A stretch of DNA of 64,000 nt from contig NZ_JABSSM010000019.1 of the NCBI RefSeq assembly GCF_013214165.1, forward strand, positions 1 to 64,000, given 5' to 3'. A model generated the notes under the pieces. The model saw only the letters and a list, made by a program, of their open reading frames with translations. It was not told the origin of the DNA and made no database searches. The position numbers were made by a program, and so were the translations under genes. The DNA comes from Shewanella sp. (GTDB lineage Bacteria; Pseudomonadota; Gammaproteobacteria; Enterobacterales; Shewanellaceae). Positions 19,692-38,045 of the stretch are shown here, one piece after another (the first letter of the stretch is position 1; each line of letters begins with the position of its first letter).

Positions 19692-20729
19692 TTACTTATC
19701 GCGCCAGATCATCACTTGGGCCTGTTCACCACTCTTGCGGGTCGCACGGTACATGCCGTCGGTATTGAATGGGGTAGCGATATTGCCACGATGGTCTATG
19801 GCGATAACTCCCCCCATACCGCCTGCGGTAATGAGCCTTTGGTTGATGACTTCATCCGCAGCCTGAATAATAGATTTCTGCTGATATTTCACCTTAGCGC
19901 AAATATCTCCCGCCACTTGATAGCGAATAAAGAATTCACCATGGCCCGTCGCCGATACGGCACAGACACCATTTTCTGCGTAGGTTCCTGCGCCTATGAT
20001 TGGCGCGTCACCGATCCGACCATAACGCTTATTGGTCATCCCCCCCGTTGACGTGCCGGCGCTGATATTGCCTTGCTTATCGAGGGCGACAGCCCCTACG
20101 GTACCTACCTTATATTCAGTATCGAGATCGCTGTGAGCAACAAGATAATCTTTGTCTTCGAGCTTAGCTTGCTCCATCTTAGCCTTAGCGCGCTGCAGTG
20201 CTTGGTATCTGTGTTGAGTGTCGAAGCTTTCGTTGGCAACCAGTGACACACCTTGAGTCAAGGCAAACTCCTCGGCCCCTTCACCATAGAGCATCACATG
20301 AACAGATTTATCCATGACCAGACGCGCCAAATCTATCGGGTTTTTGATATGTTTAACCCCAGCGACGGCGCCAGCATTCATGGTTTGACCATCCATGATG
20401 GAGGCATCCATCTCATGTTGTTCATTATGAGTGTAGACAGCACCTATACCCGCATTAAAAAATGGCGAGTTCTCCAACACATTAATGGCTGTCGTGACCG
20501 CATCCAGACTCGAGCCCCCTTTGGCCAACACGGCATAACCGGCATCGACCGCTTGGGCTAACTTGTCGCGGTACGCCTGCTCTTTCTCTGGAGTGAAGTT
20601 GCTTGGTTTAATCGTCCCGGCTCCGCCATGAATGGCGATAGCAAATGGCTTGTCTTCAGCCCAGGCTGCTGAACTCGACACGCTTGATATAGCCAGCAAA
20701 ATGGCGAGTATTTTGTTTTTATTTTTCAC
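19692..20729 (-). CDS. iaaA: isoaspartyl peptidase / L-asparaginase (Ntn hydrolase)
   Basis: A 345-aa plant-type asparaginase that removes isoaspartyl residues from dipeptides and can hydrolyse asparagine. It has a signal peptide (about residues 1-24, ending SSAAWAED), so it acts in the periplasm. The AIHGGAGTI motif follows, and the autocleavage site is G-TVGAVALD with the nucleophile Thr (about residue 210). The following GTSTGGMTNKRYGRIGDAPI segment is conserved in the family. The precursor should split into alpha and beta chains before that Thr. Exported members are common in marine gammaproteobacteria. Confidence 0.92.
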   Translation of the reverse strand: MKNKNKILAILLAISSVSSSAAWAEDKPFAIAIHGGAGTIKPSNFTPEKEQAYRDKLAQAVDAGYAVLAKGGSSLDAVTTAINVLENSPFFNAGIGAVYTHNEQHEMDASIMDGQTMNAGAVAGVKHIKNPIDLARLVMDKSVHVMLYGEGAEEFALTQGVSLVANESFDTQHRYQALQRAKAKMEQAKLEDKDYLVAHSDLDTEYKVGTVGAVALDKQGNISAGTSTGGMTNKRYGRIGDAPIIGAGTYAENGVCAVSATGHGEFFIRYQVAGDICAKVKYQQKSIIQAADEVINQRLITAGGMGGVIAIDHRGNIATPFNTDGMYRATRKSGEQAQVMIWRDK

Positions 20730-20865
20730 TTTTAGGGCCTTTATTTTCTATTTGCACTCTTTGTAACCATTTTTAGTGCTAATTACAATCATAAGCTTGC
20801 TAGCAATCAATTATATAGTGACAATATACCCAGCCTTCTTTACTCACTGAATAGAGCCCGATTTT

Positions 20866-22713
20866 TTGCAATTATCCTCGTTACACTTATGGCCATTGAG
20901 CATCATTTTATTGAGCTGTCTGCTCAGCACATTTCCTGTCATGGCGAATACTTTCCTACTGTTAAAAATCACCGGTGCGAATGCCTCCCTAAGCCGCAAC
21001 ATTGAAGCCCATTTAGGGACGTTACCCAGCTCAGAAGTCCAGCGACGGGCTTTCATCTTTAATGCCGAAGATAATGTGATCGCAGCATTGAATTCCCTGG
21101 GTTATTACCATGGAGAGATAGCACAAGATGTGCAAACCAGTCCTGATTCACCTTGGGTCTTATCATTAGAGGTGACCCCGGGAGAGCCCACGCGCATCGA
21201 ATGGATTGACTTACATTTTGACGGTGAGATCCTCGAAGACGTGTTTATCCTGCAATGGCTCGACAAGCTTGCCATCAAACCTGGCGATATACTCAATCAC
21301 GGCAAGTACCAGTTGATGAAATCTCAATTAATCACCCTCGCACTCGCCAGAGGTTATTTCGATGGTAATTATGTTCAGTCTTCCATCGAAGTTAACCGTG
21401 ATATAAACACAGCCAAGATCACCCTGCACTATGATTCAGGACCCAGATACCATATGGGAGAGGTGAGTTTTGCAGGTCATAACTTACAAGATGGATTGCT
21501 AGACACCTTAATCCCATTTGAAAAAAATGCGCCCTATAGCACTGGGGGGTTATCTAGATTGAACCGGGAGCTATTAGACACCAGTTACTTCTCTAATATC
21601 AAAGTATTGCCTCAGCTCGATAGAGCAACAGGGCTAGATGTTCCCATCAAGGTTGAGTTAAGCCCCAAGCCGAGTCACTCGATCGAGTTAGGTTTAGGTG
21701 TCGATATAGGCAATACCACAGACAGCGCCGTCGAGCCCAGAGTCAGTATAAACTGGCGCACACCACAGATAAACAGCTACGGCCATTCCCAAGAAACCAG
21801 TTTAGAATGGTCCCCGGATAGACCCAAATATCTGACCACTTACACTATCCCATTGACCCATCCTCTGGATGATCAGCTAAAAATCCGTTTCGGTATGCTC
21901 AGGGATAAATACGGTGTGACACAGATCTACGATGCCGATGATAACAAGTTCACCAATACCGGTGAACTCGAGGCGAGTAAAGGCTTAGTCGCCGTGATAC
22001 GCCAGCAAAGGCTCGCTAATAACTGGATATTAAGTTATTCGGTTGAAGCGATGAAAGAATACTACACCCAGTCTGATATTGATTACTCCCCTGATTTTTT
22101 TCTGTTTGGCACCAGCATCTCCAAAACCACACGTGGCGACAACACGTTAGACCCCAAGTCTGGATTTTTTCAGTATTACAGTATCGAGTATGCTAACCCT
22201 AATTTAGGCTCAGCGATTCAGCTCACCCGTATACAGACTAAATATAAATGGATTGACACGTTTTTCGATAAACATAGAGTTGTGGCTCGGTTAGATCTAG
22301 GCGTTAACTTAGCCGATGATGCCGATTTAGCGCTTATTCCACCGTCATTGCGCTACTTTGCCGGGGGGGATCAGAGTATCAGGGGCTACAGCTATCAAGC
22401 CTTGGGACCCTACATTGACTACACCAATATTGATGGCGATAAAGCCAGAGACGTTGTCGGTGGACGTTACCTGATGGTGGGAAGTCTCGAGTATCAGTAT
22501 TACGTGACGCCAACCTGGCGTGTTGGCACCTTTATCGACGCGGGTAATGCATTCGATATCAACCAAATAGAACCCATAGTCTCTGTTGGCGGCGGATTAC
22601 ATTGGATATCGCCTATCGGCCCCATCAAGCTGGATCTCGGTGTTGGCCTCAAAGAGACTGATACGGTAGACAGACCATGGCGTATCCATTTGACTATGGG
22701 GGCAGAGCTATGA
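20866..22713 (+). CDS. tamA: TamA, outer-membrane translocation assembly protein
   Basis: Omp85-family barrel that works with TamB in outer-membrane biogenesis. The 615-aa protein has a signal peptide (hydrophobic residues about 8-25, ending PVMANTF), three POTRA domains (about 28-270) and a 16-strand barrel. The barrel carries the Omp85 motif region GGDQSIRGYSYQALGP and ends with an alternating strand. The start is TTG; the nearby ATG at 20889 is out of frame, and the next in-frame ATG (20941) would cut the signal peptide. The tamB start codon overlaps its stop. Confidence 0.95.
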   Translation: MQLSSLHLWPLSIILLSCLLSTFPVMANTFLLLKITGANASLSRNIEAHLGTLPSSEVQRRAFIFNAEDNVIAALNSLGYYHGEIAQDVQTSPDSPWVLSLEVTPGEPTRIEWIDLHFDGEILEDVFILQWLDKLAIKPGDILNHGKYQLMKSQLITLALARGYFDGNYVQSSIEVNRDINTAKITLHYDSGPRYHMGEVSFAGHNLQDGLLDTLIPFEKNAPYSTGGLSRLNRELLDTSYFSNIKVLPQLDRATGLDVPIKVELSPKPSHSIELGLGVDIGNTTDSAVEPRVSINWRTPQINSYGHSQETSLEWSPDRPKYLTTYTIPLTHPLDDQLKIRFGMLRDKYGVTQIYDADDNKFTNTGELEASKGLVAVIRQQRLANNWILSYSVEAMKEYYTQSDIDYSPDFFLFGTSISKTTRGDNTLDPKSGFFQYYSIEYANPNLGSAIQLTRIQTKYKWIDTFFDKHRVVARLDLGVNLADDADLALIPPSLRYFAGGDQSIRGYSYQALGPYIDYTNIDGDKARDVVGGRYLMVGSLEYQYYVTPTWRVGTFIDAGNAFDINQIEPIVSVGGGLHWISPIGPIKLDLGVGLKETDTVDRPWRIHLTMGAEL

Positions 22714-25700
22714 CCCAAGAGTCGACTGAAATGCCCATCGATGAGCCAGTGCAGCCAAACAAAACAACCCGGGAAAAGCCACATAAAAAAACAGGTTATC
22801 AATACACGCTTTGGCGAAGTTTCAAGCTTGTTTCGCGTGCCTTGATCTACATCCCACTGGGTTTTTTGATCACATTTGCACTCTTAATAGGCACCCATAT
22901 TGGTAGCCGGTTAACGGTATTCTTGGCCGATACACTAGTGCCGGATCTGCAGATAACCTATGTCGGCGGTGCGATCAATAACAGGCTGGAGGTCACCGGT
23001 GTCCATTGGCGGATGCCGGGAGTCGCAGTAGAGCTCGATGACTTAACCTTAGATTGGCAACCCTTGTGTCTGCTGCGCAAACAGCTTTGTGTTGGTGAAC
23101 TGTTGGCGTCGAGAGTCATTGTCGAAATAGATACTGATCCATCCTCAAAACAACAAACATCGATAATAGAGAGAGACACAGCCGATTTAAGCCAAGTAAA
23201 CCTAACGACCGCAGCCCTTGTTGATGCTAAAAATCCGGTTAAGGATGATATAAAAGAGCCAAAGGAGCGCGATGTAATTGATGCAGAAATCACCCTGCCT
23301 TTCGGCATCGACCTGACTAAGGCTGATCTGGCTAATGTCAGGGTCAGGGTCAATGAAATGCATTTCAATGTATCGCGACTACAAACAAGAGCCCAATGGC
23401 AGTCAACAGGTATCAGAGTGAATTATTTAACCTCTGAAGATCTGCTGGTCGACATTCCATTATCGCGGGATTCAGATAAACATTCACAAATAGATACTGA
23501 TATAGATATAGACCAAGATCACACTTGGGCCATGGCAGACTTACCCCAGGTCTTTATGCCAATTCCTGTCTTTGCCGAGCGTGTTTCCCTCACCAACAGT
23601 CATCTAAGACTTGGGCACAGAGATGACCTCTTCTCCCAGATAGACTTTGAAGCCAGTTATCACAGTTTCCTTATCCATATCGAGAAACTTAAGCTAGAGC
23701 ACACCTATGGTAAGGTCGAACTCGAGGGCGAGATATCCCTACACGACGATTACCCGCTGGATTTTATTGCCCTCATAGATGCCCGGCAAGTCGATGTGAT
23801 ACCGGGATTAGGACAGCAGCATGTCACTTTAGCATTATCCGGAGGCTTCAATAGACTCAAGATAGAATCGAGCGGCAATGGCCATATCGACTATTCACTG
23901 ACTGGCGATATTGCACTGGCCGATCCTAAACTGGCCTATCATCTTTCTCTCACATCTAGACAACTGGGTTGGCCCTTAGACACAAATACCTATTCAGCCC
24001 AGTCTGTCGACCTTGAGAGTGAGGGCGATCTTGACCTGCAAAACCTGACGTTCTCAGGCCGTGTTAACACCCCTTACCATCCCATTTTAGCTATCGACAC
24101 CGAGTTTACCCATAGCAATTCCAAGGTCGAAGTCAAACGTCTTAAGGCAAGAGGCAAGCTGGGTGACATCGACATTTCCGGCCATGCCAGTTACACAGAC
24201 GGCATCAGCTGGGATGTGGCTATCGATGTCATAGATTTTGATATGGAGCAGCTGGCATTAGCCCTTGATAATCCTTTACCGGAGAGCTTCATCAGTGGCA
24301 GATTTAACACCCAAGGTAAACTTGATACAACACAGTGGCGGGTCGCTATATCTCAATCTGATTTAACCGGTGAAATTCAAGGATACCCTTTTCATCTCAT
24401 TGGCGATCTCAGTTTGGATAATCAACTTCATCTCAGTGCCGACAGCTTAAGACTGAGCGCCTTACAATCCATCTTGACACTTTCGGGCACAGCCGACGAC
24501 GACTGGTCCGTCAATGCACGCCTAGATGTTCCCGACCTTAACCTCTGGCACCCGGATTCATCTGGCAGTATCAAGGCTAAGATGAATGTGTCGGGAAAGA
24601 GTGACCACCCTGAAATCAGCGTCTCGGCTAACGCGCAGGACCTGCAATTTGAACGTTTCAAGCTAAAACAAGCTAAGATTAATGGCTTCTATCGTCCGCT
24701 GGATAATCAAGAGTTTGCCCTAACACTCGGTACCGGAGAGTTCAGATATAACACTCAAACATTAGACTCCATCACACTGAGTATTACAGGAGACAAGCAA
24801 GATCAAAAGCTGAAGCTAGAGACATCGGGAGAGCATAGACTCGATACGCACATAGACTCGAAACTCAACACCAAAACCGAAAAAATAGTCGCCGAGGTCA
24901 GAAGATTAAGCCTGAGTTCACTCTTAGGTGACTGGGCTCTGCAAGCGCCATTTAAGATATCTTGGGACAACCTGAGCCAGACAGGCTTACTCAGCACCTT
25001 TTGTTGGCTCAACATCGATGGCAAGCTGTGTCTGGATGATCAAGCCGAGTTGGGCGAGAATGGTGATGCCAGAATCACCTTCCAAGGAGACATAGGCGCC
25101 ATATTAGCGCCGCTATTACCCGACAACTTAATATGGCAAGCGCCGGCAAAATTATCTTCACATTTGATATGGGCCAAAGATAGTAAGCCTCAAGGAGCAT
25201 TGAGCCTCAATTTCGAACCCGGTCATGTCAGCCTTAAGAATGACCAGCATGATGTGGACATAGGTTATAAGACACTGTCACTGCACGCCTCACTAGATGA
25301 GAAGAGATTATCAAGCCAGTTACAATTCGATTCACATGATATCGCTAGCTGGGAAGGACGACTAGACATAGCCGTGACCCCAGACCGGACGCTATCGGGT
25401 TATACAAGATTACATAAGATAAACTTGAATGCATTGGCTGAATTTTTGCCGCAACTCGAAGTGATACAGGGTTATATATCCAGTGAGTTGACGATAACGG
25501 GCACATTAGATCACCCCGATGTTTCTGGGCAACTACTACTTGAAAATGGTCAATTCCTGACCACAGCGAACCCAACACTATTGGAAGAGATTGAGCTTGC
25601 TGTGTCCCTATCGGGTCAAGGTGCTCTACTCGATGGTACCTGGAAAATGGGACAAGGCCAGGCACAGGTATTAGGCAACATAGACTGGAGCACAGGAGCG

Positions 25701-26675
25701 CTCAATGGCAATATCCAAATTAACGGTGATAACCTAGTTATCATTCAACCTCCTCTGGCCATCATCAATGTATCACCCGCGCTTGATATTACTTTCGCTA
25801 AAGACAGTTTTAATATAGAAGGCGTCATCGAAGTGCCATCAGGCCATATCAAGATAGTGCAGTTACCCGAAGGAGGGGTAGAGGTATCTCAAGATGTGAT
25901 TTTTAACGACAGTCTCTCCACCGGGCAGAGCAATCAAATTCCCCTGACTCTTACATCTAACATAAAAATCAAGCTCGCAGACAACCTGAAAATTGATGGC
26001 ATGGGCCTCACAGGTAAGCTGACAGGCGTCTTAGAGCTAAAACAAGCAGCCTTCAAACCAGCATTACTCTACGGCGATATACGCGTTGTAGATGGTAAAT
26101 ATAAGTTCATGGGGCAAACCTTAGATATTAAGGCCGGCGAAGTCCAATTTATTGGCCCAATGGAAGTGCCCAATCTTAATATCGAGGCGGTAAGAGAGAT
26201 CAAAGATGAAGATGTCTTGGCCGGAGTAAGAATAACCGGCACGCCGCTCAAACCCATCGTCACCTTGTTTTCTAGCCCAACCAAGGAACAAGCCGAAATA
26301 CTCTCATACATCATCAAGGGCACTGGGTTTCACAATAATGATAATGAACAGAACAGTGGTTTGATGTTGGGTGCGGCGCTAACCTTGAGTAATCAGATCG
26401 GGGGGGGGGCTGTGAATAACATCGGCGATTCGGCAACCGGATTAATTGAAAAACTTGGATTTTCAAATGTTCAACTCGATGCAAATGATGACGGCCGTGT
26501 GGCTATCAGCGGTTTCATCGGCGAAGACTTGATGGTCAAATATGGTTATGGGGTCTTTAATCCTGGTTATGAGATGACGGTACGGTATTACCTGTTGTCA
26601 CAGCTCTATTTAGAGTCCGTATCGGGCACCATAGAGCAATCATTAGACATCTATTATAACTTCGATATCGATTAG
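22710..26675 (+). CDS. tamB: TamB, inner-membrane-anchored AsmA-like bridge protein
   Basis: Very long periplasmic beta-groove protein (about 1321 aa) that spans from inner membrane to TamA and is now linked to phospholipid transport to the outer membrane. One N-terminal transmembrane helix (about residues 40-65, LIYIPLGFLITFALLIG) is followed by long beta-rich repeats. The C-terminal TamB domain (DUF490) ends YNFDID. The ATG at 22710 overlaps the tamA TGA (ATGA) and has a GGGGGCAG site, so it is chosen over an in-frame ATG 33 bp upstream. A ten-G run lies in the coding sequence at 26400-26409. Confidence 0.96.
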   Translation: MTQESTEMPIDEPVQPNKTTREKPHKKTGYQYTLWRSFKLVSRALIYIPLGFLITFALLIGTHIGSRLTVFLADTLVPDLQITYVGGAINNRLEVTGVHWRMPGVAVELDDLTLDWQPLCLLRKQLCVGELLASRVIVEIDTDPSSKQQTSIIERDTADLSQVNLTTAALVDAKNPVKDDIKEPKERDVIDAEITLPFGIDLTKADLANVRVRVNEMHFNVSRLQTRAQWQSTGIRVNYLTSEDLLVDIPLSRDSDKHSQIDTDIDIDQDHTWAMADLPQVFMPIPVFAERVSLTNSHLRLGHRDDLFSQIDFEASYHSFLIHIEKLKLEHTYGKVELEGEISLHDDYPLDFIALIDARQVDVIPGLGQQHVTLALSGGFNRLKIESSGNGHIDYSLTGDIALADPKLAYHLSLTSRQLGWPLDTNTYSAQSVDLESEGDLDLQNLTFSGRVNTPYHPILAIDTEFTHSNSKVEVKRLKARGKLGDIDISGHASYTDGISWDVAIDVIDFDMEQLALALDNPLPESFISGRFNTQGKLDTTQWRVAISQSDLTGEIQGYPFHLIGDLSLDNQLHLSADSLRLSALQSILTLSGTADDDWSVNARLDVPDLNLWHPDSSGSIKAKMNVSGKSDHPEISVSANAQDLQFERFKLKQAKINGFYRPLDNQEFALTLGTGEFRYNTQTLDSITLSITGDKQDQKLKLETSGEHRLDTHIDSKLNTKTEKIVAEVRRLSLSSLLGDWALQAPFKISWDNLSQTGLLSTFCWLNIDGKLCLDDQAELGENGDARITFQGDIGAILAPLLPDNLIWQAPAKLSSHLIWAKDSKPQGALSLNFEPGHVSLKNDQHDVDIGYKTLSLHASLDEKRLSSQLQFDSHDIASWEGRLDIAVTPDRTLSGYTRLHKINLNALAEFLPQLEVIQGYISSELTITGTLDHPDVSGQLLLENGQFLTTANPTLLEEIELAVSLSGQGALLDGTWKMGQGQAQVLGNIDWSTGALNGNIQINGDNLVIIQPPLAIINVSPALDITFAKDSFNIEGVIEVPSGHIKIVQLPEGGVEVSQDVIFNDSLSTGQSNQIPLTLTSNIKIKLADNLKIDGMGLTGKLTGVLELKQAAFKPALLYGDIRVVDGKYKFMGQTLDIKAGEVQFIGPMEVPNLNIEAVREIKDEDVLAGVRITGTPLKPIVTLFSSPTKEQAEILSYIIKGTGFHNNDNEQNSGLMLGAALTLSNQIGGGAVNNIGDSATGLIEKLGFSNVQLDANDDGRVAISGFIGEDLMVKYGYGVFNPGYEMTVRYYLLSQLYLESVSGTIEQSLDIYYNFDID
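26400..26409 (+). repeat. homopolymer of ten G inside tamB
   Basis: Codes Gly-Gly-Gly in NQIGGGAVNN near residue 1231. A run this long is prone to replication slippage; a gain or loss of one G would shift the frame and replace about the last 90 residues of the TamB domain. Confidence 0.9.
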
Positions 26676-26771
26676 GTTTATTGATACTAAAAATGACGTC
26701 CTATGTATGACCTAGACTCAAACTCGCTCCTTGATGAGTCAATGCTCCTGGAGCATATGCTTAAACGAAAA

Positions 26772-26792
26772 ATCCCACTCAAAGAGTGGGAT
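26772..26792 (-). terminator. terminator of the phosphonate-like cluster
   Basis: A 9-bp perfect stem (ATCCCACTC / GAGTGGGAT, loop AAA). The minus-strand copy is followed by TTTTTCGTTT, so it serves the cluster transcribed from 30429 to 26906. tamB converges on it. Confidence 0.8.
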
Positions 26793-26905
26793 ATACACCA
26801 GCAGACATCATAAAATCAGCTAAGGACTGATACTGTTCACTAGCATCTTGGCAATTTTTGTTCATTATTTTTAGACTCAGCACTAAAAATAATTGACAGT
26901 CTCAG

Positions 26906-27664
26906 TTAAATTTGATTGCAAAAAATGCTCTTTGCCAAAGAGAAATCAGCTTGTGTATCGATTTCAGTCCACTTAAGCCCTGTAATATCTAGGGTATTAA
27001 AAGTGACATTTTTCTCAATCAATCGCTCATAAGCCGCTTCATAATAAGCTTGATGATTTTCTGGATCATTCATCATTAACTTTAATTCAGTGAATAATAG
27101 TTTCCCGGTTGCTTTGCTGATTTTTTCGATACCAATTGACTCCCCGATGGCATCTTGAGGCGCGACTTCTTTACTGGCTTTGAGTACCTTATTTTGCTCA
27201 TCAACAATCACCTTGATTTCTTCGGCATCAAGATTAATATCTTTATCGATGCAAAGGCAATTAGCAACATCACTCACTATCAATTTACGCAGAATGTCTT
27301 GATCAAAAACAACGTCTGCATCAAATTTTATAAAATCACAATCTTTAACAAAAGGTTCGGTCAACATTAAAGAATAACCAGTATTTGTCTGCTCATAGCG
27401 TTCATTAGTCACAAACTGTGCGTTTAAACTAGGGAAATTAGACCTGACATAATCTTTTATTTGATCTTGCAAATAGCCTAGAACAAAAATCACGTCATTA
27501 ATGCCACAAGCTTGAAGATTTGAAACCATCATTTGCAAAATAGTGTGGTCTCCTATTTTTAGTAAACTTTTTGGGCAATTATCAGTCAGAGGTCTGATCC
27601 TAGAACCGACTCCTGCAGCCAAGATGATGGCTTTAATTTTGGTGTTATTAATTTGCTCTTTCAT
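26906..27664 (-). CDS. LicC/PntC-like nucleotidyltransferase (predicted cytidylyltransferase)
   Basis: A 252-aa GT-A-fold NTP transferase. The nucleotide-binding start is IILAAGVGSRIRPLTDNCPKSLL. FIKFDADVVFD supplies the metal-binding Asp pair, and the end WTEIDTQADFSLA matches the LicC group. LicC relatives activate phosphocholine, and PntC relatives activate 2-aminoethylphosphonate as CMP-AEP. With a PhnW-like aminotransferase and CDP-alcohol transferases as neighbours, AEP cytidylyltransferase is the preferred prediction (inference). Sugar-1-phosphate or phosphocholine substrates are alternatives. It is the last gene of an AT-rich operon. Confidence 0.85.
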   Translation of the reverse strand: MKEQINNTKIKAIILAAGVGSRIRPLTDNCPKSLLKIGDHTILQMMVSNLQACGINDVIFVLGYLQDQIKDYVRSNFPSLNAQFVTNERYEQTNTGYSLMLTEPFVKDCDFIKFDADVVFDQDILRKLIVSDVANCLCIDKDINLDAEEIKVIVDEQNKVLKASKEVAPQDAIGESIGIEKISKATGKLLFTELKLMMNDPENHQAYYEAAYERLIEKNVTFNTLDITGLKWTEIDTQADFSLAKSIFCNQI

Positions 27665-27749
27665 GTTATTACTCTAAATTGTTAAGTTTCAACTAAAATC
27701 GTCACGACGTTTAATAATGTTATTGATGCTGTATATATTGACTAGGCAT

Positions 27750-28412
27750 TCAAACACTAGTAGACATTATCTTCCAAGTATAAATTATCGATATAATGAT
27801 GGTGTATGCAATAAGCACATAATACCAAGCACCACTTAATTTTGGTGTTCTGATTGGTGCTACATTGAGAAAAGCTATAGCGATAATGCTCCCATATAGC
27901 AGGTAGATAAATAAGCCAGGCTCGAGCAAACCATCAAATAGAAAAAGAAAAACCAAAATAATGGCATTATTATCAATGGCCATACCTTGATACGATGACT
28001 CACCATCTAAACCAAAAACATTGAAGTAACTCAAACGTAAAACACCGGCTGCAACAATGATAAAGGCTCCGGGGAAAAACCAAGGGCTAAAATCGCCATA
28101 ACTCAATAATAATATTGCAGGGCAAATACCAAAACTAACAATATCAATTAAGGAATCGAGTTGAGCGCCAAACTGGCTTTGCTCTTTGGTCCGCCCTTGC
28201 ATTTTTCTGGCGATAATGCCATCAGTCCAATCTAGAAATACCGCAACAATCAATGCAATCATTGCTGCTGGGTACAAAGATAAAAAAGCAAAATATATGG
28301 CTAATAATGCCGATAATAATCCCATCAATGAACATATGTTGGGTAAATCTTTAGCAAATGATAATATACTCGGTCGTGCTTGTTGGTTATTCATGGTTTC
28401 TACTGGGGGCAT
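27750..28412 (-). CDS. CDP-alcohol phosphatidyltransferase, PssA-like
   Basis: A 220-aa multi-pass inner-membrane enzyme. The family signature D-G-x2-A-R-x8-G-x3-D-x3-D is visible, spaced through DWTDGIIARKMQGRTKEQ and FGAQLDSLIDIVSFG. Six or so hydrophobic helices are present. The DSLID-x-x-S-FG pattern is closest to the phosphatidylserine synthase type that uses CDP-diacylglycerol. In this cluster it may make a special lipid head group. Its substrate alcohol cannot be read from the sequence. It sits 85 bp before the nucleotidyltransferase gene. Confidence 0.85.
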   Translation of the reverse strand: MPPVETMNNQQARPSILSFAKDLPNICSLMGLLSALLAIYFAFLSLYPAAMIALIVAVFLDWTDGIIARKMQGRTKEQSQFGAQLDSLIDIVSFGICPAILLLSYGDFSPWFFPGAFIIVAAGVLRLSYFNVFGLDGESSYQGMAIDNNAIILVFLFLFDGLLEPGLFIYLLYGSIIAIAFLNVAPIRTPKLSGAWYYVLIAYTIIISIIYTWKIMSTSV

Positions 28413-28471
28413 GTTGACTTCTCAAATAATAATTTAAATTACATTTAGTAGGTTACGACATAGTCAGGTAA

Positions 28472-29248
28472 CTAACTTTTAATCTTTTCAATTTCTCTGC
28501 ATTTAAGCCAAGCACGTCCAAGGGCAAGAAAAAATTGACTAAAAGCGAAAATCCATAACATTGGAATTAAGCAATCAAGTATTAAGGCTAACGACAGCAT
28601 GAAAATAAACACACCTTCATTAACATAAATGATCTTGTACTGCTCACCAATAAACCAACGTAAGTTTGCCCGTAATCCAAAGCCAAATCCAGCCACATCC
28701 TCTTTGCTAGCGTTAGCCGTAGACTCTTGTAGAGCAAGATCTGCTAAATAGTTACTGTTGTGGCACATTTGCGTATGATAGCCTACGTATTTGACATAGC
28801 CCCTGAAGGAGTATGCTGCCACACCGATAAAAGCTAAAAGAAGTGGTAATACTTGTTGAGTTTGACTGTAGGCGGCGTAACCGATCGCACCAAACCAAAG
28901 TGCCACCTGGATTTCATCGGTAAGTTTGTCATAATAACATCCAACTACAGAGGTCGTTTTCCGGTAGCGCGCCATCTGCCCATCCATGCAATCAAACACA
29001 TGACTTAACTGTATCAAAATGGCTGCGATAATGAAATTTTGGTAACCTCCGAGCACAATAAAAACAGTGGCAATAATAGCCGTAATAAATGAAATTAAGG
29101 TGATTAAATTCGGCGTTAACCATTTAAAATCAACTACTATAAAATTTAAGACAATAGCTAAAGGCGAGGTAACGAATGATGACCACCATTCGTCGTCTTT
29201 CGTTTTAGTTGCCCATAAACGGGCAAATTTTGACTTCGTCAGTTTCAT
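28472..29248 (-). CDS. CDP-alcohol phosphatidyltransferase (predicted head-group transferase)
   Basis: A 258-aa integral membrane protein with the full catalytic signature in FDCMDGQMARYRKTTSVVG, then CYYDKLTDE. The N-terminal part FVTSPLAIVLNFIVVDF precedes a run of transmembrane helices. Enzymes with this architecture can transfer a CDP/CMP-activated head group, such as ethanolamine phosphate, to diacylglycerol. Here a CMP-AEP donor is proposed from context. Its start overlaps the aminotransferase stop by 4 bp (ATGA), tying the two functions together. The substrate is inferred only. Confidence 0.85.
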   Translation of the reverse strand: MKLTKSKFARLWATKTKDDEWWSSFVTSPLAIVLNFIVVDFKWLTPNLITLISFITAIIATVFIVLGGYQNFIIAAILIQLSHVFDCMDGQMARYRKTTSVVGCYYDKLTDEIQVALWFGAIGYAAYSQTQQVLPLLLAFIGVAAYSFRGYVKYVGYHTQMCHNSNYLADLALQESTANASKEDVAGFGFGLRANLRWFIGEQYKIIYVNEGVFIFMLSLALILDCLIPMLWIFAFSQFFLALGRAWLKCREIEKIKS

Positions 29249-30429
29249 GCAATGGAAAGCTTCGTAGGAGATAATTTTTTAGTAAATGGACTCACGCTAA
29301 TAAAAGCGGCGGGAGTTGGCAGAAGATTACTTTTTTCTATCGAATTGAAATTTTCGAGTACATCGGTCAATGAAGATAAAAAATACCGGATGTCATTAGC
29401 TGAAAGCTCTCCAATATTACCGACCTGAAATACCTTGTTCTTGAAACAGCCTTTACCTTCATAAATAATAATAGACTTTTCACGTAATTTTTGACGAAAA
29501 GAACCCACATTTATATTTCTAGGTATATAAACCGTTGTTAATACAGAACACATATTTTTTTCAGCAATTAAAAATTTCAAGCCTAATTTAGTCATGCCTT
29601 TTCTTAATCGTGTGGCTCTAGCTTTTAATAAAGCATGTCGATTAGCCACTCCTTCATTGAGTAAATTGGCTAATGCTTGCTCCAATGCGAAAAACAGGTG
29701 CACCGCTGGTGTATTGGGTGTTTGATAAAATGTCTTAATGAAATAGTAAAACTTGTATAGATTTAGATACATGGTCTTGACTGGAAGTTTTTTTAGTTTT
29801 TCAAATTCTTCCACTTTTCCCAAGATAAATGATAAGCCGGAATACGAGTTCATTGCTTTCGAACTTGAACTTGAAAAGAAGTCAATATGACATTTTTTCA
29901 TATCTATTTCTTCGGCTCCAGCAGAGCTAACACCATCAACGATAAACAAAATATTGTGTTTGTTAACTACGGCCCCAACTTTTTCAATTGAATTTAACAT
30001 TCCTGAGCTGGTCTCATGATGAACCATGGCGACGACATCAATTTTATTGCGCTTAAGATAGTCCGATATTTTATCAATATCTAACTCTTCCCCCCAAGGG
30101 AAATCCAACCTGAAGGTGTTTTTATTATGGATAGTAGAAATATCGACTAAGCGTTCACCAAATTCACCGTTAGTAATAATAAGAATGTTTTTATCACCTA
30201 CTACCGACGAAAGCATAGATTCATTTGCTGCAGTGCCAGAACCAGTAATAACCACTGCTCTATAATCTGCTTGTTTAACCCTAAATATTTTCAGCAATTT
30301 ACTTTCAATACTTTGCAATAGCTGGTCAAATTCAACCTCTCGATGACAAATATCTTCTTTAGCAACTGCCTGCCTGACATTATCTGCCACATTAACAGGA
30401 CCGGGTGTAAACAAAAGATAATTGTTCAT
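29245..30429 (-). CDS. PhnW-like 2-aminoethylphosphonate aminotransferase
   Basis: A 394-aa class V PLP aminotransferase. The start MNNYLLFTPGPVNVADNVRQ and the late segment FQVGNIGELSANDI match the AEP--pyruvate transaminase family. The PLP lysine is in FFSSSSSKAMNSYSG (about residue 192) and the Asp partner in FIVDGVSSAG. PhnW interconverts AEP plus pyruvate with phosphonoacetaldehyde plus alanine. There is no phosphonatase (PhnX) or phosphonate uptake gene nearby, and the partners are biosynthetic, so the synthetic direction is favoured. First gene of the operon, with GGAG before its ATG. Confidence 0.85.
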   Translation of the reverse strand: MNNYLLFTPGPVNVADNVRQAVAKEDICHREVEFDQLLQSIESKLLKIFRVKQADYRAVVITGSGTAANESMLSSVVGDKNILIITNGEFGERLVDISTIHNKNTFRLDFPWGEELDIDKISDYLKRNKIDVVAMVHHETSSGMLNSIEKVGAVVNKHNILFIVDGVSSAGAEEIDMKKCHIDFFSSSSSKAMNSYSGLSFILGKVEEFEKLKKLPVKTMYLNLYKFYYFIKTFYQTPNTPAVHLFFALEQALANLLNEGVANRHALLKARATRLRKGMTKLGLKFLIAEKNMCSVLTTVYIPRNINVGSFRQKLREKSIIIYEGKGCFKNKVFQVGNIGELSANDIRYFLSSLTDVLENFNSIEKSNLLPTPAAFISVSPFTKKLSPTKLSIA

Positions 30430-30453
30430 TATTGTTTTTTTTCTCCACTAAAA

Positions 30454-30459
30454 ATTATA
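30454..30459 (-). promoter_or_regulatory. candidate -10 box for the phosphonate-like operon
   Basis: TATAAT on the minus strand, about 25 bp before the aminotransferase start codon. No good -35 hexamer lies 16-18 bp upstream, so an activator may be needed. The tandem repeat array begins about 100 bp further upstream. Confidence 0.35.
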
Positions 30460-30560
30460 GACAAGTGTACAACAGTCATGTTTTTTATAGACTTATTCGT
30501 AAATGAACCTTAATGGAAATGAATTATGGATCACGTCAAATAATATAGCGAACAGACGAT

Positions 30561-30710
30561 TAATACGATTAGGTGCAATTAGGTGCAATTAGGTACTAAT
30601 GGGTACTAATGGGTACTAATGGGTACTAATGGGTACTAATGGGTACTAATGGGTACTAATGGGTACTAATGGGTACTAATGGGTACTAATTTGGTGCAAG
30701 TGGGTACGAT
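30561..30710. repeat. 10-bp tandem repeat array (VNTR) upstream of the phosphonate-like operon
   Basis: Nine exact copies of GGGTACTAAT (30601-30690) preceded by AGGTACTAAT and two AGGTGCAATT units, and followed by decayed units. The period is one helical turn. It ends 130 bp from the aminotransferase start. The rest of 30711-31136 holds no convincing gene. Confidence 0.95.
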
Positions 30711-31136
30711 TAAGCGAGAACTTTCATTGATAATTATTAACCATATATCAAGCTTTGAAGGGAAAGTTCTGGGTGCACAACTTTGTGAGTTGCTAGATAG
30801 TTTCTTGCGGAACCATGATCTTCAATATAGCAGAGTTTATTTAAAATAGCTACGACTAAGCACGTTGAAAGTGAACATGGTTTGCGACCAGCCCCCCTTT
30901 ACTATTGGCTGGGTTGGCTAATCATTCCCTCTCCAGACCACTGATTTAATTGACAAGTCTACGTTCATAGAAATACTTCGCCAATCTAAAAAGTTGTAAC
31001 CTGCTAGCTTAAAATTAGCATTTAGTTATGATTTCTTATGTAGATAACACAGTTAGGAATCATAAACTGACACCTATTCTTAACAGAACAAGTGTCAGTT
31101 TTACTAGATGACAATCATTGAACAAAAAAATAGCGA

Positions 31137-31892
31137 CTATTTATGTTCCATATTTTTAGCCTGGCTATTTTTAAATTTCTGCCACACCTTACCGCTATTG
31201 ATACCATAACTGCGCATCAAAGCCGGTATCGCGTTGTGATTCTTCTCTGCCGCAAGTTGTTTTAGCCCTTCATAAAAATCAAACGCTAGCAGTCTGGCTT
31301 CAGGTATGGTGAAATAATCTTTACCGACTCGGCTATAAAGGCCTTTAAACCCATTGAGGATCAGCACATAGAGTGGATTGCCTGAGTTAAACGCTAAAGT
31401 ATGATGCAGCTGATAATCAAAATCGACATAGGCCTGAGGATCATCATTTAAACTAGAGATCTGCTCCAATGCTTGCAGCACTTTATCGGGATTATGACGC
31501 ACCGCCCCCTTGAAATAGATGGCGCTGATATTCGTTCGTGCCGAGAGGAGTTGCTCTAATAGTACAGGCTCGCCGGCTGGATTAAGATCCGCAATGGTCT
31601 CAAGTACATTGAGGCCTGACGATTCCCAGATATCATTGACTCGGGTCGGTTTACCATGCTGAATCGTCAACCAGCCATCTCTGGCCAATCGCTGGAGCAC
31701 TTCTCTGAGTGTGGTTCGTGTAACGCCGATTAATTCGGAAAGCTCACGCTCTGCAGGCAAAATTGTACCTGGGGGGAACTTATCTTCCCAGATAGATCGG
31801 ACAATGTATTTTTCAGCAAAGCTCGCCGGTCCTTTAGCCTCAATGATACCTGAATCTTTTGAAGTTAAAGGAGCTTTTTGGGCAATTGTCAT
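31137..31892 (-). CDS. fadR: FadR, fatty acid metabolism regulator
   Basis: A 251-aa GntR-family regulator binding long-chain acyl-CoA. It represses fatty acid degradation and activates unsaturated fatty acid synthesis in E. coli. The N-terminal domain is nearly E. coli-like (PPGTILPAERELSELIGVTR and TTLREVLQRLARDGWLTIQH), followed by the FadR C-terminal all-alpha domain. About 15 extra residues precede the usual start. It diverges from nhaB, the same arrangement as in E. coli, which confirms identity. The fadD gene in this window is a likely target. Confidence 0.96.
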   Translation of the reverse strand: MTIAQKAPLTSKDSGIIEAKGPASFAEKYIVRSIWEDKFPPGTILPAERELSELIGVTRTTLREVLQRLARDGWLTIQHGKPTRVNDIWESSGLNVLETIADLNPAGEPVLLEQLLSARTNISAIYFKGAVRHNPDKVLQALEQISSLNDDPQAYVDFDYQLHHTLAFNSGNPLYVLILNGFKGLYSRVGKDYFTIPEARLLAFDFYEGLKQLAAEKNHNAIPALMRSYGINSGKVWQKFKNSQAKNMEHK

Positions 31893-32197
31893 CAGGTTAC
31901 TTTTCCCACTCTAGTTCGTGTTATTTTGAGTACTGATCATACCAGAGCGGGAAAAAATGGAAACCTAATATGAATAATACTGCTTCTGTTCAAAAATCAC
32001 GCACTCACATAAGGGGTAAAATCACGCTTAGATCACGACTTTGGCACATTTTTGCTATTTAGATCTAAATTTTAAGCTATTTTTAAGCAATTGGGCTAAT
32101 TAAGGTATTAAATTAATGGTTTCTTTACGCTAGACTGGTGCGATTCAAATAGACTGTAGTTTTTACAATCAATCATATATCAATTTGAGAGGGTGCC
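31893..32197. other. fadR-nhaB divergent promoter region
   Basis: 305 bp of AT-rich DNA holding both promoters. No confident regulator site was identified by eye. Confidence 0.6.
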
Positions 32198-33781
32198 ATG
32201 CCTGTGACAATGCGTCAGGCGTTTATTGATAACTTCTTGGGAAATTCACCCAAGTGGTTCAAGATCGCGATTATATCTTTTTTAATAATAAATCCAATAA
32301 TTTTCTATATTAACCCCTTCGTCGCCGGTTGGTTACTCGTCGTCGAGTTCATATTCACCTTAGCCATGGCGTTAAAATGTTACCCTCTGCAGCCCGGTGG
32401 CTTATTAGCTATCCAAGCTGTAGCAATAGGCATGACCTCACCGAATCAGGTAATGCATGAGATAGAGGCCAATTTAGAAGTACTCTTGCTGTTGATCTTC
32501 ATGGTCGCAGGCATCTACTTTATGAAGCAGTTGCTCCTATTTGCCTTCACTAAGATGATCACTAAGGTACGCTCTAAAATCGCCGTATCCTTAATGTTCT
32601 GTTTAGCGTCCGCCTTCTTATCGGCCTTCCTCGATGCATTAACCGTCATCGCGGTGATCATTGCCGTGGCCATAGGTTTCTACTCCATCTACCATAAAGT
32701 GGCCTCGGGTAAATCTTTCTCGGATGAACATGACCATACCGATGAAGGTAATAACCAATTGTGTGAAGAAGAGTTAGAAAACTTCCGCGGTTTCCTACGT
32801 AACTTATTGATGCATGCCGGCGTGGGTACCGCGCTCGGTGGTGTCTGTACCATGGTGGGAGAGCCACAAAACTTAATCATAGCCGCACAAGCAAACTGGC
32901 AATTCGCCGAATTTGCGATACGTATGGCACCGGTCACAGTGCCGGTATTTATTGCCGGCATAGCGACCTGTTATCTGGTAGAGAAGTTTAAAGTCTTCAG
33001 CTACGGCGTGCAACTTCCAGAAGCCGTGCATAAGATACTCTCCGATTACGCCAGCTATGAAGATGCACATCGTACTAAACACGACAAGATGAAGCTGGTT
33101 GTTCAGGCCCTCATCGGCGTCTGGTTGGTAGTGGGTCTGGCCCTACACTTAGCCTCTGTGGGCTTAATAGGTCTATCAGTCATCATTCTAGCAACGGCTT
33201 TCAATGGCATAACCAATGAACATGCGCTAGGTAAGGCATTCGAAGAAGCCCTACCTTTTACCGCGCTCTTAGCGGTATTTTTTGCCATCGTAGGTGTCAT
33301 CATAGATCAACAGCTGTTTGCACCTGTGATTCAATGGGCACTGAGTTACGAAGGGAATACTCAATTGGTGATTTTTTACATCGCCAACGGCTTACTCTCT
33401 ATGGTTAGCGATAATGTCTTTGTCGGCACCGTCTATATCAACGAGCTCAAGACCGTCTTGCTCAATGGCCAGATAACCCGCGACCAATTCGACTTGTTAG
33501 CCGTCGCAGTGAACACGGGGACTAACTTGCCATCGGTTGCAACACCGAACGGTCAGGCCGCCTTCCTGTTCTTGTTGACCTCGGCAATTGCTCCACTCAT
33601 ACGCCTCTCATACGGGCGCATGGTATGGATGGCTTTGCCATACACCATAGTGTTATCCATAGTGGGTGTGTTGGCCATTCAGCTCGGCGCGCTCGAGCAC
33701 ATGACTCAGTACTTCTATGACTCAGGCATACTCATTCACCACTCTGCGAAAGACGCTGTGGGTGCCGTGACCGGTCATTAA
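32198..33781 (+). CDS. nhaB: NhaB, Na+/H+ antiporter
   Basis: Inner-membrane sodium/proton antiporter, 527 aa, with about 12 hydrophobic segments. The charged cytoplasmic loop around residues 165-195 ([20 protein letters not shown]) and segments such as [20 protein letters not shown] and [20 protein letters not shown] match the NhaB family. The GAGGG ribosome site is close to ATG. Divergent from fadR and followed by dsbB, as in E. coli. Confidence 0.96.
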
Positions 33782-33819
33782 TAGAGATACTGAACTTTTA
33801 TCTGCTAATTCAGTCCTAT

Positions 33820-33842
33820 AAACGCCCTACATGGGCGTTTTT
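33820..33842 (+). terminator. terminator of nhaB
   Basis: Stem AAACGCCC / GGGCGTTT with a 5-base loop, followed by T residues, 39 bp after the nhaB stop. Confidence 0.85.
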
Positions 33843-33929
33843 CATTGGCACATTCGCCACAGTAGGATATGGTTTATCTATAATGAGTAGGGCCTAGCCT
33901 GCGGTATAAAATATTACGGAGAAAATGAT

Positions 33930-34469
33930 TTGAACTCTATGACTAGATTCGCTCAATCCCGTCTTGCCTGGTTTATCCTGGCTGGCACGGCGTTGGGACT
34001 CGAGGTATGCGCCCTCTTGTTTCAACATGTCATGAAATTAGATCCTTGTGTGATGTGCATCTACCAGAGGCTGGCTATCTTTGGCATTTTGGCCGCGGGC
34101 TTAATTGGCATTGTCGGCCATAAAAATCGATTTGCTCGGCTAATCGCCGTGATTGGCTGGGGGGTTAGCGCCGCTTGGGGCTTGAAACTAGCACTTGAGC
34201 TAGTCGATATGCAAACCAACCCATCTCCATTTGCGACATGCTCTTTCTTACCCGAATTTCCTGCTTGGATGCCGCTCCATGAGTGGATGCCTGATATCTT
34301 CCTGCCAACAGGTATGTGCAGTGATATTCCTTGGGAAATGATGGGAGTCACCATGGGACAATATATGATTGGGGCTTTCGCGGCTTACCTGATGGCCTTA
34401 CTTCTCTTCATTATCCCGGCTTTATCGGCAAACAAACCAAGACCAGGATTTATCGCCGATTATAGATAA
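33930..34469 (+). CDS. dsbB: DsbB, disulfide bond formation protein
   Basis: Inner-membrane quinone reductase that reoxidises DsbA. 179 aa with four transmembrane helices, the CVMC pair in [12 protein letters not shown] (about residues 44-47) and a second periplasmic Cys pair ([10 protein letters not shown] and [10 protein letters not shown]). TTG at 33930 has GGAGA at good spacing; ATG three codons later is an alternative start. Follows nhaB as in E. coli but with its own terminator on each side. Confidence 0.95.
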
Positions 34470-34476
34470 TCAGCGC

Positions 34477-34503
34477 AAAAAAACGCCCTACCCGGGCGTT
34501 TTT
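34477..34503 (+). terminator. terminator of dsbB
   Basis: A-rich flank, stem AACGCCC / GGGCGTT with a 5-base loop, then a T run. It can work in both directions, and the ycgN gene converges on it. Confidence 0.85.
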
Positions 34504-34531
34504 GCTTTCTATTCTCACAGCGATGGATCGA

Positions 34532-34972
34532 CTAATCCAGCGCGTTCAATGGCCAAATCACGATATGATCTTCCAAATACTTAACCCTTGTCTCACAAAT
34601 CACCTTATCTTGTGTCGACATGCCATTTTGATGCATCTCTGATTTAGAGCCAGTGATGAGTGGGTGCCAACTCGGTAATGACTTACCTAGATATAAACGT
34701 CGATAGGCACAGCTATCCGGCAACCAGGTTAATTCGGCGACATTGTCCATGGTCACTTGAGTACACGAAGGCACATAGTCGAATCGGCTTGAATAGTGGA
34801 TACAATGACCTTGGTGGCTATCGAGTAACTTACACGCCACATTGGTGTAATAGAGCTCTTCGGTATCATCATCGATAATTTTATTCAAGCAACACTTACC
34901 ACAGCCGTCACACAAAGACTCCCACTCTGAAATATTCATCTGAGCTAAGGTTTTTTCTTTCCAAAATTCCAT
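34532..34972 (-). CDS. ycgN: YcgN family (UPF0260) cysteine-cluster protein
   Basis: A 146-aa cytoplasmic protein of the UPF0260 group. The conserved CDGCGKCC motif (about residues 22-29) and further Cys residues around [16 protein letters not shown] and DSCAYRRLY suggest metal or Fe-S binding; the biochemical role is unknown. In E. coli it lies near ycgL and minCDE, the same neighbourhood as here. Confidence 0.92.
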
Positions 34973-35128
34973 TATTCAATTCTATAAAAAAGACAACTTT
35001 CGCAGGCTATTTTACACTAGTTAGTGAATTCATTGAAGCTCATGAGTCTCTGCATGCTCCCCAACCTTGGTAAACGTTAGGTAAGAGTTATTTGATAGGA
35101 GGGTATTTCAATCTTTCAGACAGATAAG

Positions 35129-35859
35129 TCACAGACTAGACCACTGTGAGAATGTCTGCTTCACCGCTAAGGCGGCGAGTTCGGCATCAAAAGCCGCTGC
35201 CGACGCTAACGCATCTAAGGTGTTATTCCAGATATCCTTGTTGCCATCTCCGTTACCATCTTGGGCGTAACTAAGATACATATTGGGAGTAAGCTGAATC
35301 TGCCCCATGGTGCCGGTTCTCGACGCCCTCAAGTCATCGTACGTTATTCGTGCTTGAGCAAGAATATTCAAGGCGGCGAAAAACTCTTTTTTATAAGCGG
35401 ACGGCTGTCTACTTTCAAAGGCTAAGGAAGCGGTAACAGAAAGTACTGGGTAGCCAGTTAAATGGCCGCCATAATTAGATTCAATACCCCACAGGGCTAA
35501 AATAAATCTGGGCTGAACCCCATACTTTTCACCCAAGATGTCCAGCTCGTCCTTATGTTCTTTGAAAAAGGCACGGGCCGTGCTCACGTTGGCGTCTGAT
35601 ACGCGAATGGGCAAATATGTCTCAAGCGATATAGGAAGATTGGGATCTTGCTTTGGGGGAGTAGATTGTTTAAAGCGTTTAATCTGAGAAAATGCTGTGT
35701 CTATGGTGGTTTTATCAATACCTAAATCGTGGATTCTTGCCTTAATTGAGCCAAAAACTCATTAAAGCTGTGCTGTTTTTCTGGCTCACTAGCCAAAACA
35801 CTCGGGGATGACATCATCAGTAATGACACCACCCGAAGCCAACGCCTATTTAGCACCAT
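35129..35859 (-). pseudogene. MltB-family lytic murein transglycosylase, frameshifted and truncated
   Basis: The ATG at 35859 opens a signal peptide (LLMMSSPSVLASEPE) and the family start FNEFLAQLRQE, then hits a stop near 35740. A different frame continues GIDKTTIDTAFSQIKRFK and on to the catalytic domain, with ILALWGIESNYGG (catalytic Glu) and GTMGQIQLTPNMYL. The frame ends at 35129 with DALASAAAFDAELAAL, before the usual C-terminal part of MltB proteins. One small frameshift near 35745-35760 and a lost C-terminus make a functional enzyme unlikely. A start inside the second frame (35614) would give a protein with no export signal. Confidence 0.85.
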
Positions 35860-35877
35860 AAACATTCCCTATTCAGG

Positions 35878-36159
35878 CTATTTACCGCTGTAGCCGATCG
35901 CTTTCTTATGCTCTTCTAGTAAGTTAACCTTTGGTGGGGGGACTTGTAAATAATAACCTTTATTAAGCAGCTCACTTTTAACCTTGTTAATATCGGCAAA
36001 GCCTAAATGATCTCTTTTTGACAGGGGTAACATCATCACTAAGGTCGGTGCACCAAACATCTCCATTAAAGCCTCTGGGACACGTTCAAATTCATTACGT
36101 TTTTCAACAAAAAGATAACTGTCAGCCTTGAGGCGACTCTTATATACAGCACAGATCAT
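35878..36159 (-). CDS. ycgL: YcgL-domain protein
   Basis: A 93-aa small conserved gammaproteobacterial protein. The start MICAVYKSRLKADSYLFVEK and the end YYLQVPPP define the YcgL family. Function is not established. It is divergent from minC with about 120 bp between, the conserved arrangement, and is followed by the broken transglycosylase gene. Confidence 0.93.
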   Translation of the reverse strand: MICAVYKSRLKADSYLFVEKRNEFERVPEALMEMFGAPTLVMMLPLSKRDHLGFADINKVKSELLNKGYYLQVPPPKVNLLEEHKKAIGYSGK

Positions 36160-36281
36160 ATACTACCAACTTTCCAAACTATTCAACTTGCCAGTGACTG
36201 AGTCACACTATAACATGGAAGGTCAGGAATATAATGCACATCAGCATCAATGCTGATTATTTATAAAAGAGCAATATCGGC

Positions 36282-36947
36282 ATGCAGAAACCCAGCCTAG
36301 AACTGAAAGGCTCCTCTTTTACGCTTTCTGTGCTTCATATCAATCATTTTGATCTGGAAAAAGTCGCAGCAGAGTTAGATAGTAAATTAGCTATCGCCCC
36401 GCAGTTTTTTATTGGCGCCCCTCTGGTTGTCAATCTTAGCTCAATTACCGATCCCGAGTATAACCTTGCCGCCCTCAGAGACCTGCTCATTTCGAGGCAA
36501 CTCGTCATCGTTGGCATCACAGGTGCGGTCACAGGAGTGGCGGCGCAAGCTAAAGATTTAGGCTTGGCACTGATCAAGTCTGGCAAGCAGGTAACAGCTC
36601 AACCACAGATGCCAAAGACCACCAAGATAGTGAAACGCAATGTCCGCTCAGGACAACAGATATATGCTAAGAACAGTGATCTGATCGTGGTCGGCACAGT
36701 CGGCAATGGCGCAGAGCTTATCGCCGATGGCAGCATTCATGTCTACGGCTCACTGCGTGGTAAGGCAATGGCTGGGGCTGCGGGTGATAAACATGCGGTC
36801 ATAATCGCAAAATCCATCGATGCCGAGCTGGTTTCCATCGCGGGTCAATATTGGCTAACGGAAAACATTCAAGCAAACAGCACAACGAAAAGTGGTTGTA
36901 TTCGGCTCGACGGTGAATCTCTCACCATCGAAGCTTTGCCACTTTAA
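36282..36947 (+). CDS. minC: MinC, septum site-determining protein
   Basis: Inhibitor of FtsZ assembly that keeps division at mid-cell. 221 aa: an N-terminal FtsZ-binding domain (1-about 100), then the beta-helix domain that binds MinD ([38 protein letters not shown]). First gene of minCDE. Confidence 0.95.
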
Positions 36948-36975
36948 AAAGATAGAAATAAGGATAGAAGCACAC

Positions 36976-37785: not shown

Positions 37786-37787
37786 TT

Positions 37788-38045
37788 ATGACTTTACTCG
37801 ATTATTTCAAGAGCAAGAAAAAACCTAATACGGCATCGACGGCTAAAGAGCGCTTGCAGATCATCGTCGCTCATCAAAGGGGCGAGCGCGATGCGCCTGA
37901 TTATTTCCCTAAGATGAAGCAAGAGATCATCGAAGTGATCCGTAAGTATGTACAGATAGACACAGATCAAATAACTGTGCAGCTGGATCAAAATGATGAG
38001 CAACTATCTGTACTCGAACTGAATGTGACTTTACCGGAAAAGTAA
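37788..38045 (+). CDS. minE: MinE, cell division topological specificity factor
   Basis: An 85-aa protein that stimulates MinD ATPase and drives the oscillation. The N-terminal anti-MinCD helix ([20 protein letters not shown]) and [19 protein letters not shown] are conserved. Two bases separate it from minD. Confidence 0.95.

Follow-up and report, generated by a model that had tools for sequence, protein, structure and literature searches.

A contig of Shewanella sp. (NCBI RefSeq assembly GCF_013214165.1, contig NZ_JABSSM010000019.1, positions 1 to 64,000; this 64,000-nucleotide stretch is hereafter the window) carries four minus-strand genes that contain a three-gene cassette whose gene content and order are conserved beyond chance. 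The cassette consists of a class-V aminotransferase (AT), a CDP-alcohol phosphotransferase (A) and a cytidylyltransferase-like protein of the LicC/PntC type (NT), and in the window a second CDP-alcohol phosphotransferase (B) is added. The explanation favored here, which we judge to have about an even chance of being correct, is that this is a horizontally moving, Kennedy-like cassette for an amine head group that is independent of phosphoenolpyruvate (PEP) mutase (PepM), with AT making the head group, NT activating it and A transferring it. The head group is probably something other than the phosphonate 2-aminoethylphosphonate (AEP). The initial annotation of this DNA had read the four genes as completing the synthesis of an AEP-modified lipid or surface polymer; the architecture does fit head-group transfer after activation by cytidine triphosphate (CTP), but the AEP part of that reading was unsupported. 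The four genes are as follows.

29245..30429, minus strand: AT, class-V aminotransferase with an AEP-transaminase-like fold (394 aa; substrate Arg replaced by Gln335, in FQVGNIG)
28472..29248, minus strand: A (CDPOH_A), CDP-alcohol phosphotransferase of the core cassette (258 aa; DxxDGxxAR...GxxxDxxxD complete)
27750..28412, minus strand: B (CDPOH_B), second CDP-alcohol phosphotransferase, optional fourth gene (220 aa)
26906..27664, minus strand: NT, LicC/PntC-type cytidylyltransferase-like protein (252 aa; GVGSRIRPLTDNCPK motif)

All four open reading frames were found where the initial annotation had placed them, at 26906-30429 (the listing covered positions 20000-38000 of the window). Pfam matches (Aminotran_5 on AT at 1.8e-26, CDP-OH_P_transf on A at 1e-15 and on B at 2e-14, NTP_transferase on NT at 4e-12) and intact motifs agree with the families it had named, which were a PhnW-like aminotransferase, two different CDP-alcohol phosphatidyltransferases and a LicC/PntC-like nucleotidyltransferase. 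AT has a lysine, K191, at the pyridoxal phosphate (PLP) position, both A and B passed the CDP-alcohol phosphotransferase motif test with D-x2-DG-x2-AR...G-x3-D-x3-D intact, and the G-x-G-S-R-x8-PK motif of NT is intact as well. AT and A overlap by 4 nt and the gaps are short (59 nt between A and B, 85 nt between B and NT), which fits a predicted operon. The low GC content noted earlier was also borne out, at 34-40% over the cassette genes in 1-kb windows against mostly 42-49% in the flanks.

Search for a phosphonate source in the cassette genomes

PepM (TIGR02320) was over cut-off in none of the 13 cassette genome entries searched, a set that comprised the cassette genomes other than that of Sulfitobacter. 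Two of these entries, G073 and G097, give identical coordinates and probably represent the same genome, which brings the likely number of genomes to 12. As a control, the same model was over cut-off in 18 of 398 Pseudomonadota genomes, which indicates that the model works. Since this means that about 5% of genomes have PepM, its absence from a dozen would be unsurprising by chance. The absence nonetheless matters, as no cassette genome could do without PepM if the pathway made AEP. Of 12 TIGR02320 matches below cut-off in the cassette genomes, none carried EDKx5NS, nine carried KRCGH, which we take to be the methylisocitrate-lyase motif, and three carried neither. EDKx5NS is the PepM motif given in PMC6697681. 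In the window genome, which is 99.99% complete, the PEP-mutase domain family matched a single gene that lies beside two others. This gene is presumably PrpB-like, and we take its neighbors to be citrate-synthase-like and isocitrate-lyase-like.

Phosphonopyruvate decarboxylase (Ppd) was over cut-off in 0 of 12 cassette genomes, which made the genome-wide search for pepM and ppd that the initial annotation had proposed negative on both counts. That annotation had also held that its AEP reading would fall if pepM and an AEP uptake route were both missing. As far as the search extended, both are missing: the AepX importer, the uptake route that was searched for, was over cut-off in 0 of 12 genomes (best match 137 bits, in G099, against a cut-off of 392.75), other AEP importers not having been searched. 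Completeness was at least 99% for the four Shewanella cassette genomes, one of which (G092) is a single 5.9-Mb contig. Membership in phosphonolipid biosynthesis was judged by PepM and Ppd, and neither is present over cut-off in the genomes searched. It is this absence of the known phosphonate-making enzymes that makes another head group probable and that, along with an arginine-to-glutamine change in AT, counts against the AEP reading.

The aminotransferase and its partner enzymes

AT is nearest by sequence to AEP transaminases (TdAEPT at 1.2e-49, StPhnW at 7.2e-45), and it falls under the cut-offs of the AEP-transaminase models TIGR03301 (308.2 against 360.8), PRK13479 (236.8 against 296) and TIGR02326 (228.3 against 400.8). 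AT retains the transaminase residues K191 and D165. In the FRIGNIG motif the Arg binds the phosphonate or carboxylate group. Gln stands in its place in all of the closest 120 of 1991 AT matches, the window's own included (119 by pattern and one, P0045, by eye), and these 120, being the closest, are not independent of family membership. The same Gln was found in nine aligned cassette rows, Sulfitobacter included, and in the other cassette loci listed. Among 20 PepM regions, 16 had no class-V match and the other 4 held five such matches, all of which keep the Arg, one of them being only 23% identical; the Arg is also kept in L017-L019, TdAEPT and StPhnW. The N-terminal loop reads GPVNV in the cassette AT versus GPLTT or GPATT, with GPVTL in one PepM-linked group. 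In a tree with one distant outgroup and long branches, nine Arg enzymes split from the cassette ATs with support of 98/96.

The profile of NT was matched best by LicC (5e-27) and TdPntC (7e-23), with the next match at 6e-15, and NT matches TdPntC over its full length. The PntC motif GxG(T/S)Rx4-8PK is represented in NT by GVGSRIRPLTDNCPK. In the NT tree a separate clade (99/99) unites the cassette NTs, TdPntC groups with L079, which is PepM-linked, and L017 (100/100), and four E. coli sugar enzymes (GalU, GalF, RfbA and GlmU, on long branches) lie apart from the cassette NTs. Tree and profile therefore keep NT apart from these sugar enzymes, in line with the initial annotation, but the tree also separates NT from TdPntC, and LicC, being only partial there, is unplaced relative to the cassette NTs. 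TdPntC Glu104, described in PMC6697681 as near the AEP amine, corresponds to Asp115 in NT, which is invariant over 13 aligned NTs, and the position of TdPntC Glu196 aligns ambiguously, at Tyr208/Glu209. Asp115 lies opposite the LicC Asp in the DAD motif, which was taken as Asp105 of the same paper with an assumed chain offset.

The profile of A was matched by AF2299 (9e-14), cholinephosphotransferase 1 (6e-9) and DIPP synthase (4e-7), and the best models for B were archaetidylserine synthase and PssA, both below cut-offs. The PepM regions L080, L081 and L084 each have a B-like phosphotransferase (27-34% identity) after an NT, and in L080 what we take to be another PLP-type enzyme lies next to this pair; these regions are candidates for true phosphonolipid clusters. 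The combination of a PLP enzyme, an NT and a CDP-alcohol phosphotransferase thus also occurs alongside PepM, and the cassette seems to follow the same design for another head group. Separately, Prevotella sp. oral taxon 299 (L064:8958-11553) has a HisC/CobD-like PLP enzyme, an NT that is 37% identical to that of the window and LicD in a row, which is a pairing of PLP enzyme and NT without a class-V AT.

Distribution and genomic setting

AT, an A-type gene and NT occur in the same order in all nine loci of the genome scan, to which three genus loci (L023-L025) can be added. Besides the window, 13 loci have this order (L003-L011, L023-L025, L033), with L003 and L023 probably representing one species. 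In L008 the place of A is taken by a paralog of 28% identity, and the NT match in L006 runs from residue 9, the listed start of the reading frame being too late. In 12 of 14 loci the A gene begins inside the AT gene. A strong AT match (at least 533 bits) was found in 4 of 97 genus genomes (G000, G073, G092 and G057), with the others at 172 bits or less. In the class, AT was found in 1 of 369 genomes (E <= 1e-80), which is the window's own, and in the Thioglobus order in 3 of 83, all three already in the genome scan. The cassette is also present in a metagenome-assembled genome of Chlamydiae, and a Sulfitobacter plasmid carries the three-gene form at 53-60% identity. G073 has two AT copies, and G092 and G057 have the three-gene form at other genomic sites. 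The distribution is patchy, and the view that the cassette moves horizontally belongs to the favored explanation as a whole and shares its even chance.

Both the window and S. benthica have the optional gene B, which L011 carries about 3 kb from the cassette on the opposite strand; hand-picked rows of a comparison give a hint that further uncultured bacteria also combine B with the cassette. The B family is far wider, with 6379 matches. The B-like phosphotransferase at L011:13150-14262 (55% identical to B) adjoins a small CTP_transf_like nucleotidyltransferase gene. A scan of viral contigs with NT, which detects close relatives only, gave no match, 12 phage records matched AT at 32.4% identity or less, and PADLOC returned weak DndA/SspA matches for AT and none for A, B or NT.

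Among the named carriers of A are Moritella yayanosii (two proteins), Photobacterium profundum and S. benthica, and outside S. benthica the evidence consists of individual proteins and not of whole loci. Close relatives are also found in Sulfitobacter from North Sea sediment and in Beggiatoa alba, and a link between the cassette and piezophiles is suggestive only. A CDP-alcohol phosphatidyltransferase common to piezophilic Colwellia and S. benthica appears among the depth-biased genes of Peoples et al. 2020 (PMC7542103), and it may be A, B or another protein. No literature was found that joins AEP, cytidylyltransferase and CDP-alcohol phosphatidyltransferase, or that joins piezophily, CDP-alcohol phosphatidyltransferase and aminotransferase; piezophily together with AEP led to a sponge-symbiont paper.

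The cassette of the window lies between two convergent genes that are 4461 bp apart, and a decamer array is found in the same interval.

26676..31136, no strand: inserted interval between the convergent genes (flanks 22677-26675, plus strand, and 31137-31892, minus strand)
30592..30690, no strand: array of the decamer ATTAGTACCC (9.9 copies at 100% match, lying 163-261 bp ahead of the AT start)

We take the plus-strand flanking gene to be TamB-like and the minus-strand one to be FadR-like. All 16 genus genomes compared, counting that of the window, have the FadR-like gene. The TamB-like end is 54-109 bp from it in 6 of the 15 others (L097-L101, L106) and falls outside the fetched piece in 7 of the 15. 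The two closest genomes by the FadR-like gene (G010 and G003) have a different gene in the same gap (L110:5060-6379 and L111:5138-6433), presumably AtoE-like, and the site consequently looks like an insertion hot spot. S. benthica KT99 has the cassette at the same site, its proteins matching those of the window at 82-94%, and what we take to be transposase-like fragments adjoin it there. Upstream of AT, a few ACCTAATTGC copies come after the perfect ATTAGTACCC tandem array, whose copy number could vary and could influence expression.

Several further elements were considered as partners of the cassette. About 290 bp upstream of AT are conserved in L004, L005, L006, L007 and L011 (mean column identity 82%, promoter-like start by eye), and BLAST of upstream pieces left this five-locus leader unmatched in the window or L023-L025. 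A leader RNA was rejected, as the covariation term of the consensus fold was unfavorable (+3.44) and two-sided change was seen in only 4 of 60 pairs; the L004 copy had no Rfam match at E <= 1. A distant alanine-dehydrogenase-like gene lies directly after NT in L010 (L010:3927-5069), and it was dismissed as a general supplier of the amino donor because a search of 31 further genomes, 11 of them with the cassette, gave no relative at E <= 1e-20. In L005 (L005:9426-9983) and L007 (L007:9447-10013) a protein that looks P-loop-like by eye separates A from NT, the two copies being 74% identical; it had no Pfam family over cut-off and no solved relative (best E 0.34), and its presence in these two loci only led to its rejection as a general cassette kinase.

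Competing explanations and known systems

Under the favored explanation AT would form an amine from a carbonyl precursor other than phosphonoacetaldehyde. The most plausible precursor is a phosphorylated aldehyde or ketone from central metabolism, for example glycolaldehyde phosphate or dihydroxyacetone phosphate. NT would then activate the resulting amino-alcohol phosphate with CTP, A would pass the phospho head group on to a membrane alcohol such as diacylglycerol, and B, where present, would serve a second acceptor or product. This substrate, product and lipid acceptor are what we infer from sequence, and several points weigh against the scheme. The loci have no gene in common for a phosphate-ester precursor, and NT could also activate choline phosphate as LicC does. 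The completeness figures cover the four Shewanella genomes and not the nine reached through loci, the Gln tally spans only the closest homologs, and the AT tree is limited by its outgroup and long branches. Additionally, the 13 best Foldseek matches of AT, obtained with a structure model of moderate quality (mean pLDDT 74.5), are all AEP-transaminase structures, and an AEP chemistry supplied from outside is therefore possible. Without the Arg, the usual transfer of an amino group from an alpha-amino acid would be weakened too, and AT may thus be a PLP enzyme of a different kind.

The last of these points leads to an alternative that we consider unlikely, in which AT would be, for example, a phospho-amino acid decarboxylase that feeds phosphoethanolamine into a bacterial branch of the CDP-ethanolamine type. 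The missing acid-binding Arg and the Prevotella NT beside a HisC/CobD-like PLP enzyme and LicD are consistent with this, but D165 and K191 are kept as in transaminases and we know of no class-V phospho-amino-acid decarboxylase. Quite unlikely is an AEP phosphonolipid cassette in which AT makes AEP or uses imported phosphonate, NT makes the cytidine monophosphate conjugate CMP-AEP and A or B passes it to lipid. The closeness of AT to AEP transaminases in fold and sequence, the full-length match of NT to TdPntC and the occurrence of an NT beside a B-like phosphotransferase in the PepM regions L080, L081 and L084 all speak for it. However, PepM (0/13), Ppd (0/12) and AepX (0/12) were not over cut-off, imported AEP would make an aminotransferase needless, and the Arg-to-Gln change in AT and the Asp115 of NT in place of TdPntC Glu104 are further points against this reading.

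It is also conceivable, with a low probability, that the product is not a lipid at all and that the cassette instead makes a soluble phosphodiester by a route like that of di-inositol phosphate, to serve as a solute under pressure or osmotic stress. The model of the fused inositol-1-phosphate cytidylyltransferase/DIPP synthase matches both NT and A, and Moritella yayanosii and Photobacterium profundum are among the named carriers of A, but NT is better matched by LicC/PntC and close relatives occur in the North Sea sediment Sulfitobacter and in Beggiatoa alba. We give very little credence to a LicC-like surface decoration, in which NT would make CDP-choline or a CDP-aminoalcohol for a surface glycan. 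Although LicC is the best solved match of NT and its DAD Asp stands opposite Asp115, the conserved set has an integral CDP-alcohol phosphotransferase and no LicD, and AT would have no role in choline use.

Returning to the PepM-independent amine head group, a broader claim can be made tentatively, and we rate it at somewhat under an even chance. The cassette may represent an undescribed mobile pathway whose product, an amino-phospholipid or phosphodiester, would belong to a class new to bacteria, in which an AT without the acid-binding Arg would supply a head group from outside phosphonate metabolism that is activated by CTP and moved by a CDP-alcohol phosphotransferase. If this is true, its carriers are deep-sea, vent and uncultured marine bacteria, with a possible tie to membrane adaptation. 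A new head group would add a chemistry of the membrane or surface that passes from phylum to phylum by gene transfer. Many cassette-type ATs are named "AEP-pyruvate transaminase" in databases (JGI names), and metagenome tallies of phosphonate makers may therefore wrongly count the cassette.

By the features tested, the cassette appears to lie outside the pnt/AEP pathway, and it would work like the Kennedy or the pnt pathway. The pnt clusters consist of PepM, Ppd, AEPT and PntC, with Tde1415 of Treponema denticola being a PntC-AEPT, according to PMC6697681. Like them, the cassette pairs a class-V aminotransferase with a LicC-type cytidylyltransferase; unlike them, it occurs in genomes that, where searched, have no PepM or Ppd over cut-off, its AT has Gln for Arg, and its AT and NT split from TdAEPT and TdPntC in trees. 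With the Kennedy (CDP-choline/CDP-ethanolamine) pathway it would share CTP activation followed by a CDP-alcohol phosphotransferase, and the profile of A matches cholinephosphotransferase 1, whereas the cassette has a LicC-type cytidylyltransferase and a PLP enzyme in the operon and no kinase gene common to the loci. The inositol-1-phosphate cytidylyltransferase/DIPP synthase likewise combines a nucleotidyltransferase with a CDP-alcohol phosphotransferase, but in the cassette the genes are separate, a PLP enzyme is added and NT is nearer to LicC/PntC. The Lic pathway provides the closest solved relative of NT, LicC, and in place of LicD the conserved set of the cassette has an aminotransferase and a CDP-alcohol phosphotransferase.

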